Shown here: in pieces, positions 23,663 through 56,997 of the stretch
Layout: every line of letters begins with the position of its first letter
Numbering within the stretch: position 1 is the stretch's first letter
Assembly: GCA_016458225.1 (NCBI GenBank)
Contig: JAEMGR010000010.1
Location: 123,969-187,968 of the forward strand
DNA: 64,000 nucleotides
Origin: Myxococcaceae bacterium JPH2
Lineage (GTDB): Bacteria > Myxococcota > Myxococcia > Myxococcales > Myxococcaceae
Direction: 5' to 3'
Program-made: the position numbers and the translations under genes
Notes under the pieces: model-generated
The model's input: only the letters and a program-made list of their open reading frames with translations
What the model was told of the DNA's origin: nothing
Database searches by the model: none

Positions 23663-24912
23663 CGCCCGCCCGGCGCGTCGTCACCCTGCCCCCTTCGCTC
23701 GTCGGCCCCGAGGCCGTCCGCTTCGCCAGGAACGCCCAGCAACGGGGCGCGGACGTGCTGGAGGTGCGCACGGATCTGCACGCACCCGACGCCATCGCGC
23801 CCCACGCGCTGGCCCAGGTGCTGCCGCTGCTCGTCTCCGAGCGAGGCCAGCCGATTCCCGCACGCTGGCTCGAGGCCTGCTGGCGCGCGGATTTCGACGT
23901 CGCGCACGCCCGTGTTCTCGCGGCGCCTCCGGGCAAGCTGCTCGCGTCGCACCACGCGGCCCGCTCACTGTCGTCCGAGGAGGCCCTGGCGCTGTGGTCG
24001 CGCGTGCTGCCCGAGGACGCGCTCGTCAAGCATGTGGAGCCCATGGAGACGCCCGCGCATGTCTCGGTCCTGCTGGAGACCCAGCGGCGCTTGAGGGAGC
24101 GCTTCGGGGCCCATCGCGTCACGGTGTTGGGCATGGGTGCCCTGGCGCTGCCGGCGCGCGCGGTGCTCGCCCGAGCGAATGTCCTGGACTACGTGGCCAC
24201 GGGCGGAGCCTGGGCCGCGGCACCTGGACAGCGGCTGCTCGACGATGCGGTTCGCGAGTGGACCCGGGCGGCTCCCGGTTCGCGCGCGCGGCTCGGCATC
24301 CTCGGGACGTCGATCGCGCATTCGCGCTCACCGCGGATCCACCTCCAGCCGTTCGATCGCATCGACCTGCCCGAGGACGCGCCGGTGGAGGCGGTGGTGG
24401 ACGCGATGCTGCCGCACTACGCGGGCTTCGCCATCACCAGCCCCTTCAAGCTGCGTCTGGCTCGCCACGTGGGCACGTCGCTCGAGGCCATCAACACGCT
24501 CGTGCGGCGAGGCTCCCGCTGGGAGGCCTTCAACACCGACACCGAGGGCGCGCGCACGGTGCTCAAGCGCCTGGATTCGGGAGGCGAGTGCCTCGTGCTC
24601 GGTGATGGCGGAACCACCGCCGCGCTGCGTGGAGTGGCTGGGGACGTGGGCCGCGCGCTGCGCGTACTGCGCCGAGCGGACGCACAAGGGCCGCTGCGAG
24701 GCGACGTGGTCTGGACGTGGCCGGACCGCGTGGCGGCACCGGAGTCCCTGCGCTTCGAGGGCGCGCGCGTCGCGGTCATCGCGTACGGAGCACCCGGGCG
24801 GCGCATCGCCCAAGACATCATCCGCCGAGGCGGGACACCGCTCATGCTCGGCGCGGCCTGGTTCGTCGCGCAGGCCCGGCGACAGCGCGAACTCTGGGAG
24901 ACAGCGACATGA
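23659..24912 (+). CDS. aroDE: Bifunctional 3-dehydroquinate dehydratase (type I) / shikimate dehydrogenase
   Basis: 417 residues from GTG 23659 (GTGA overlap with aroK). Residues 1-205 form a type I dehydroquinase: VLEVRTDL near 33, SHH with the expected catalytic His99, Lys124 in LVKHVEP as Schiff-base Lys, and AAPGQ near 187. Residues 210-417 form shikimate dehydrogenase: [19 protein letters not shown] with the catalytic Lys, INTL, NTDTEGA and [12 protein letters not shown] for NADP. The order matches the fused plant and chlamydial enzymes. The dehydrogenase half is short at about 205 residues (usual 270), so it is compact. It carries steps 3 and 4 of the pathway. Confidence 0.88.
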
Positions 24913-56625: not shown

Positions 56626-56997
56626 GCGATAACCCCCTCTGCCTCATTGCAGGGACCACGCACCCCGCGGCCTGACGCCGCTTGCGTGGTTCAGCGCCCG
56701 AGCTTCTACGGCACCGCCCCGACACGAGGCGCGAGAAGGGATCAACCGCCACCCCAGTGGGACGAAACCGCCCGGGCGAGGGACGAATCCGTCGCCCTCC
56801 CGGTGGTGGCCCCGCGTCGACATGTCGCTCGAGCCCCATCGACATGTCGAACCGGGTGGCCCGACGGGCGCTCAGCCCCGTCCCAAAGGAGCGCGCCCTG
56901 CTTCGAGGCTCGGCATGGGCATTGCTCAAGGCAGGGCGCGCTCGCCACGGAGACGTCGTCTCGGTGCGCGATCGCCACCTCGAACCTCTCGGAGACG
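56626..56997. other. Divergent intergenic region (372 bp) with tandem palindromes
   Basis: No coding pattern is convincing here. The main content is a pair of CGACATGTCG palindromes (56818-56849). The rest is GC-rich, with no clear -35/-10 pair for either gene. Confidence 0.5.
56818..56849. promoter_or_regulatory. Tandem palindromic operator sites
   Basis: The 10-bp palindrome CGACATGTCG occurs at 56818-56827 and 56840-56849 (second copy extended to TCGACATGTCGA, 12 bp). Centres are 22 bp apart, about two helical turns, so two dimers would bind on the same face. The sites lie roughly 190 bp before the giant lipoprotein start and 150 bp before the 137-residue gene. Confidence 0.55.

Follow-up and report, generated by a model that had tools for sequence, protein, structure and literature searches.

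A conserved palindrome pair upstream of a sigma-54-type promoter element in a myxobacterium and its candidate enhancer-binding protein

Two exact copies of the 10-bp palindrome CGACATGTCG, 22 bp apart from start to start, are present in the genome of Myxococcaceae bacterium JPH2 and, as judged from its sequence, the pair is a conserved regulatory element. The pair is most likely the upstream activating sequence of a sigma-54 promoter at positions 56911-56926 of the window (here, the whole stretch of 64,000 nucleotides that was analysed), and this promoter would drive a gene encoding a protein of 137 aa. We consider it very probable that the pair acts in this manner and is bound by an enhancer-binding protein (EBP) of predicted FHA fold, most likely the one encoded by the gene designated L103, with a probable input from a kinase. 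The two sites are conserved in sequence and in spacing, and are linked to a promoter element and, elsewhere in the genome, to an EBP gene; binding, sigma-54 dependence and kinase control are what we infer from these observations.

The palindrome pair and the promoter element

The promoter-distal palindrome occupies positions 56818-56827 and the second one positions 56840-56849; together with the T that precedes each copy, the repeated 11-mers extend over 56817-56827 and 56839-56849. The pair is located in a gap of 372 bp between the gene for P0002 (53386-56625, reverse strand), a lipoprotein of 1079 aa with bacterial Ig repeats, and the divergently oriented open frame of P0001 (56998-57411, forward strand), the putative target gene, which encodes the protein of 137 aa. 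A previous sequence-only reading of this DNA had described two exact 10-bp palindromes with the lipoprotein gene to one side and the 137-residue gene to the other, and these coordinates were confirmed. The same reading regarded the exact repetition as unlikely to have arisen by chance, and for the pair this was borne out. The genome of the window (G000; 8,994,968 bases in 144 contigs) contains 20 single copies of CGACATGTCG compared to 12 copies of a control pattern read backwards, while the window contains four sites with at most one mismatch against 4.46 expected from shuffled sequences. From 20 copies, approximately 0.002 pairs within 40 bp are expected genome-wide; the proposed genome-wide scan for pairs returned the pair of the window as the sole exact one with a gap of 6-18 bp, and the backward control returned 0. 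Random expectation had been named by the sequence-only reading as one ground of refutation; the single sites are near it and the paired sites far above it. The single palindromes are unremarkable and the special feature is the pairing.

Orthologues of P0001 were identified in 9 of the 96 genomes of the family (the window's own included), representing three of 26 genera, and a phylum-wide profile search of 195 genomes detected P0001 in the same nine genomes only. Two blocks are conserved upstream of all nine orthologues, namely the site pair and a sigma-54 element. CGACRYGTCG-like sites are exactly 22 bp apart in every one of the nine loci, being perfect in six, with one mismatch in two and with two mismatches in the remaining one; taken separately, the first site has 0-1 mismatch and the second 0-2 mismatches across the nine. 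The 12-bp spacer between them (56828-56839) includes a third unit, CGACAC, at ~11 bp in seven of the nine loci, which is lacking in the window and in the sister genome. Conservation upstream of orthologues had also been set as a test by the sequence-only reading, and the 22-bp pair is indeed kept before the window gene and before the eight other orthologues found.

The second conserved block, GGCAYGGNCNTTGCT, is a sigma-54 -24/-12 element that is present in all nine orthologous loci, and the distance between the start of the array and the GG at -24 is 92-95 bp in each of them. In the window, the element reads CGGCATGGGCATTGCT (56911-56926, forward strand), with GG at -24 and GC at -12; the sigma-54 consensus is TGGCACG-N4-TTGC(A/T) according to PMC7910581. 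In all nine loci a dyad site thus recurs ahead of a -24/-12 element, which is the arrangement of an upstream activating sequence. Sigma-54-like sites were scored using a penalty of our own with a limit of 1.5, by which three such sites were found in the 64-kb window, the element at 56911-56926 scoring best and the two weaker matches being at 23866 and 33216 (penalty 1.5). The -24/-12 element of the window is also enclosed by a 13-bp perfect inverted repeat, GAGCGCGCCCTGC / GCAGGGCGCGCTC, at 56889-56943, the RNA of which has a predicted fold of -40.5 kcal/mol (z -4.9); as judged by eye, this inverted repeat is not conserved across the orthologue alignment.

P0001 belongs to no known family, with no significant match in Pfam, NCBIfam or PDB sequences, and its single-sequence fold (mean pLDDT 35) was unusable. 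The start of the protein was compared with small proteins encoded between the array and the EBP gene in Myxococcus-type loci (hhalign E 0.003-0.005, probability 7-11%), and a kinship is only hinted at by this match, which is too weak for a claim to be made.

Paired sites in the genome and in the family

Pairs of GACATGTC with gaps of 3-27 bp were found at 49 places in 29 of the 96 family genomes searched, and none was found for the backward control. The spacing is 11, 12, 20, 21 or 22 bp from start to start, that is one or two helical turns, in 42 of the 49 pairs compared to 20% expected if spacings were even (p 8e-23, from spacings transcribed by hand from the search results). A sigma-54-like site is present within 220 bp of 29 of the 52 scored pairs, or 27 of 49 after duplicate loci were removed by hand, against 0.014 expected per pair when the same loci away from the arrays serve as background; for the other 22 of the 49 distinct pairs, the penalty used gave no sigma-54-like site. 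When the search was carried out with CGACRYGTCG pairs having a gap of 10-13 bp, pairs were detected in 29 of 96 genomes (control: 0) and, of 28 loci retrieved, 21 had a sigma-54-like site no further than 250 bp away. Thirty proteins encoded at pair loci were scanned against Pfam and included terpene synthases, a LodA-type oxidase, S8/GON proteases, FAD oxidases and phosphoesterases, with several of the thirty having no match. Some pairs are inside called genes; the calls were made by a simple codon-position script that errs, placing a gene over 10 of 28 arrays, including arrays before known P0001 orthologues.

Two further observations were made among the arrays of other genomes. Pairs of GAGACATGTCTC placed 17 bp apart occur in two genomes (L071:3000 and L098:4000) near an EBP gene of the response-regulator type and are a different spacing and flank class. 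At L058:3000-6031 and L074:4000-7982, an array with a sigma-54-like site precedes two genes, of which one is for a terpene synthase; the other has a weak cyclic-nucleotide-domain match at L058 and may be encapsulin-like.

In the window's own genome, GACRYGTC pairs spaced at 10-12 or 19-23 bp are present at seven loci (control: 0), comprising the window, the region upstream of the EBP gene L103, C1:784244, C10:413366, C19:159754, C23:92766 and C28:105229. Four of these, the window and the C1, C10:413366 and C28 loci, have a sigma-54-like site within 250 bp; at the penalty used, none was found for the EBP gene's own pair, C19 and C23. The genes behind the C1, C10:413366 and C28 pairs encode two lipase-like proteins and an MscS-type channel, and the sister genome (G001) has similar arrays with the same promoter before the corresponding genes. 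The C19 pair lies within a GC-rich inverted repeat that has no sigma-54-like site and is probably terminator-like. The sister genome also carries several GACRYGTC sites within ~110 bp at G001:C39:325-433 (L234), with no sigma-54-like site at the penalty used.

A candidate regulator encoded elsewhere in the genome

CGACRYGTCG pairs with a gap of 10-13 bp occur exactly twice in the genome of the window, once in the window itself and once at C5:794346-794377. The latter pair is immediately upstream of L103 (G000:C5:792700-794292), with its sites beginning 84 and 62 bp ahead of the likely ATG. The same EBP subfamily was first noticed beside the arrays of other genomes (L082, L091 and L095), and one of its members is encoded within 1.5 kb at 11 of the 28 loci from the pair search. 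Phased pairs, with at most one mismatch in all, are found in the flanks of 22 of the 30 best-scoring EBP loci as opposed to 2 among 28 further EBPs that this genome encodes (Fisher p 2e-7), and pairs are found in 37 of the 66 family genomes (out of 96) that have the EBP at E 1e-110, by either pair search, as opposed to 4 of the 30 genomes without the EBP at this cut-off (p 1e-4, hand count from a genome table transcribed by hand), both tests counting related sequences that are not independent. Eight of the 30 best loci have no pair, and in a larger set the pair is present at 43 of 90 EBP loci. One EBP query gave 50 matches in this genome. Named relatives of the EBP were found in Citreicoccus, Corallococcus, Myxococcus, Pyxidicoccus and Sorangium, and in Sorangium cellulosum the EBP gene is directly followed by a CGACGCGTCG pair at 22 bp. 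Related EBP genes and matching paired sites therefore recur repeatedly side by side in relatives, as far as Sorangium, in some cases near Ser/Thr kinase genes.

Since the one further CGACRYGTCG pair in this genome adjoins L103 and pairs accompany the best EBP loci far more often than other EBPs, this genomic linkage suggests that the regulator is encoded elsewhere in the genome and is most likely L103, which would bind the window pair. A regulon governed by a regulator located elsewhere had been proposed by the sequence-only reading, and the proposal is supported by conserved, helically spaced pairs that are few per genome and by the other pair, which abuts a regulator gene of a different contig. 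That reading had overlooked the sigma-54 promoter at 56911-56926. Among known myxobacterial EBPs, MXAN_4899 was weighed as a candidate; its 459 aa (PMC12773805) do not fit the ~530 aa of the subfamily. A small gene adjoining the EBP gene in a Corallococcus-type genome (L164:1084-1464) has a weak aegerolysin match (E 0.04) that is below the cut-off.

The L103 protein contains a sigma-54 AAA+ domain (PF00158, E 1e-60) with the sequence GAYTGA, a GAFTGA-type loop, and a C-terminal Fis-type HTH (PF02954, HTH_8, E 4e-9, with two stretches at a maximum E of 1). An AlphaFold model of the EBP built with 16 sequences is weak overall (mean pLDDT 58) and fairly confident only at residues ~26-145 and 443-524, which correspond to the N-terminal domain and the HTH units. 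Residues 24-150 of the model match the FHA fold, with the FHA domain of ArnA at Z 11.8 and, as the second-best structural match, that of Bdellovibrio DgcB with a phosphorylated N-terminal peptide (PDB 6hc1) at Z 11.3; an FHA sequence-profile match was sought in Pfam and PDB sequences and none was found, and the best 50 Foldseek matches were to AAA+ only. The C-terminal part is modelled as two three-helix HTH-like units, between which a profile comparison found a likeness (E 1e-4, probability 56%). In the N-terminal D-x-S-T-A segment (DVSTAA), the residues D, S, T and A are invariant among the 16 aligned EBPs. The EBP does not reach the cut-off of any NCBIfam equivalog listed, and neither do the PknB-like kinase-domain genes that are close to both L103 and its paralogue L104. 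Of 17 named EBP loci, 6 have a kinase motif nearby, among them that of Sorangium, and most Corallococcus EBP loci have no kinase in the flank examined.

L104 (G000:C1:700952-702547) is the second paralogue of this genome and is 63% identical to L103, which raises the alternative that the sigma-54 upstream activating sequence formed by the pair is bound by another EBP such as L104, or by both paralogues together. The L104 gene is also followed by three related sites, GGACGCGTCA, TGACACGCCG and TGACGCGTCC, and by a sigma-54-like TGGTACGGTGCCTGCA (read by eye) before a small gene. These sites, however, have the flanks G/T..A/C/G, whereas L103 sites are flanked by C..G, and the two proteins differ in one residue of the first recognition helix, Asp in L103 and Val in L104. 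Of 95 EBP loci entered (L082, L091 and L095 among them having come via the array search), 45 could be used, their motif being readable and a pair lying no more than 3 kb away. In a strict scripted count over these, C..G was present on both sites in 22 of 28 Asp types against 0 of 17 others; the tree shows just three changes of the residue, and an independent-pairs test has no power. The association between residue and flank offers a lead by which the window pair may be assigned to L103, and we regard binding by another EBP as unlikely. As a tentative generalization, a kinase-tuned family of sigma-54 activators with two DNA-binding units per subunit might read 8-bp GACRYGTC palindrome arrays at one and two helical turns, with one recognition-helix residue (Asp versus Val/Met) setting the flanking base, so that, across Myxococcota, paralogues in the same cell would keep separate regulons (lipases, proteases, terpene synthases and small proteins).

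Proposed mechanism, rival readings and significance

In the proposed mechanism, subunits of an L103-type EBP would bind the two palindromes on one helical face and assemble the AAA+ ATPase ring, which would open sigma-54 polymerase at 56911-56926 and allow the 137-aa gene to be transcribed. A nearby Ser/Thr kinase probably sets the activity of the EBP by phosphorylating the DVSTAA segment or another ligand, and the FHA domain would read the phosphorylated segment or ligand. The sigma-54 part of this reading is based on the pair and the promoter element at their constant distance in all nine loci, on the helical spacing of 42 of 49 pairs and on the sigma-54-like sites of 27 of 49; the part on kinase control draws on the FHA match at Z 11.8 and the kinase genes near both paralogues. 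Counted against the model are the 22 of 49 pairs without a sigma-54-like site, as well as the EBP's own pair, C19 and C23; the 8 of 30 best EBP loci without a pair and the presence of one at only 43 of 90 in the larger set; the pairs inside called genes; the 4 of 30 EBP-less genomes with a pair; and the Corallococcus loci that are mostly without a kinase.

As the pair is situated between divergent genes, it might instead control the lipoprotein gene, either exclusively or as a control region common to both genes, and a divergent P0002 homologue is found beside six of the nine conserved arrays. The array and the promoter nevertheless persist at the other three loci, whose 1.5-kb flanks yielded no homologue, and no sigma-54-like site is directed toward the lipoprotein gene at the penalty used. 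For these two reasons the array would go with the 137-aa gene rather than with the lipoprotein gene, control of which we judge to be very unlikely. It is also highly improbable that the palindromes are the operators of an ordinary repressor or activator (e.g. a dimer with 10-bp sites) at a sigma-70 promoter of either neighbour, beside a coincidental sigma-54 element; short palindromes are typical of operators and the pair before the EBP gene, having no sigma-54-like site, could act in repression, but the sigma-54 element is at a fixed distance in all nine loci and such sites follow 27 of 49 distinct pairs where 0.014 per pair would be expected. A chance repeat, with which the near-expected single-site counts would agree, has a negligible probability and is already contradicted by the conservation in nine of nine loci, besides the ~0.002 pairs expected and the backward control of 0 in each pair search.

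The reading of the pair as an upstream activating sequence bound by an L103-type EBP has partial parallels in known systems. According to PMC7910581, Nla28 of Myxococcus xanthus acts through tandem half sites at sigma-54 promoters; the two systems have in common that an EBP of a myxobacterium is matched with paired 8-bp sites ahead of a -24/-12 element. The Nla28 half site in that text is CT(C/G)CG(C/G)AG, in contrast to the GACRYGTC palindromes at one or two helical turns described here; by eye, the window pair does not contain this half site, its repeated unit being CGACATGTCG, and the predicted FHA fold and two HTH units of the EBP are counted as a further difference. Fis-type EBPs (NtrC, PspF and FleQ) have the sigma-54 AAA+ domain and HTH_8 in common with L103, which differs in its predicted second C-terminal HTH-like unit and in having an N-terminal FHA fold instead of a receiver. 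With Bdellovibrio DgcB and other FHA proteins that bind a phosphorylated N-terminal peptide, the EBP would share an FHA fold that is preceded by an N-terminal segment in which Ser/Thr are conserved; the output here is a sigma-54 activator, and there is no FHA sequence-profile match. No earlier description of GACRYGTC arrays, of their link to an FHA-fold, double-HTH EBP subfamily or of the spacing rule was found in the literature searched, which was mostly without subscription journals.

To our knowledge, myxobacteria carry dozens of sigma-54 activators and the targets of most of them are unknown. One EBP subfamily, present in 66 of 96 family genomes at the cut-off used, can now be tied to a readable DNA signature, by which its candidate targets may be listed from sequence, and a route by which Ser/Thr kinases would act on sigma-54 genes by way of FHA domains becomes directly testable.
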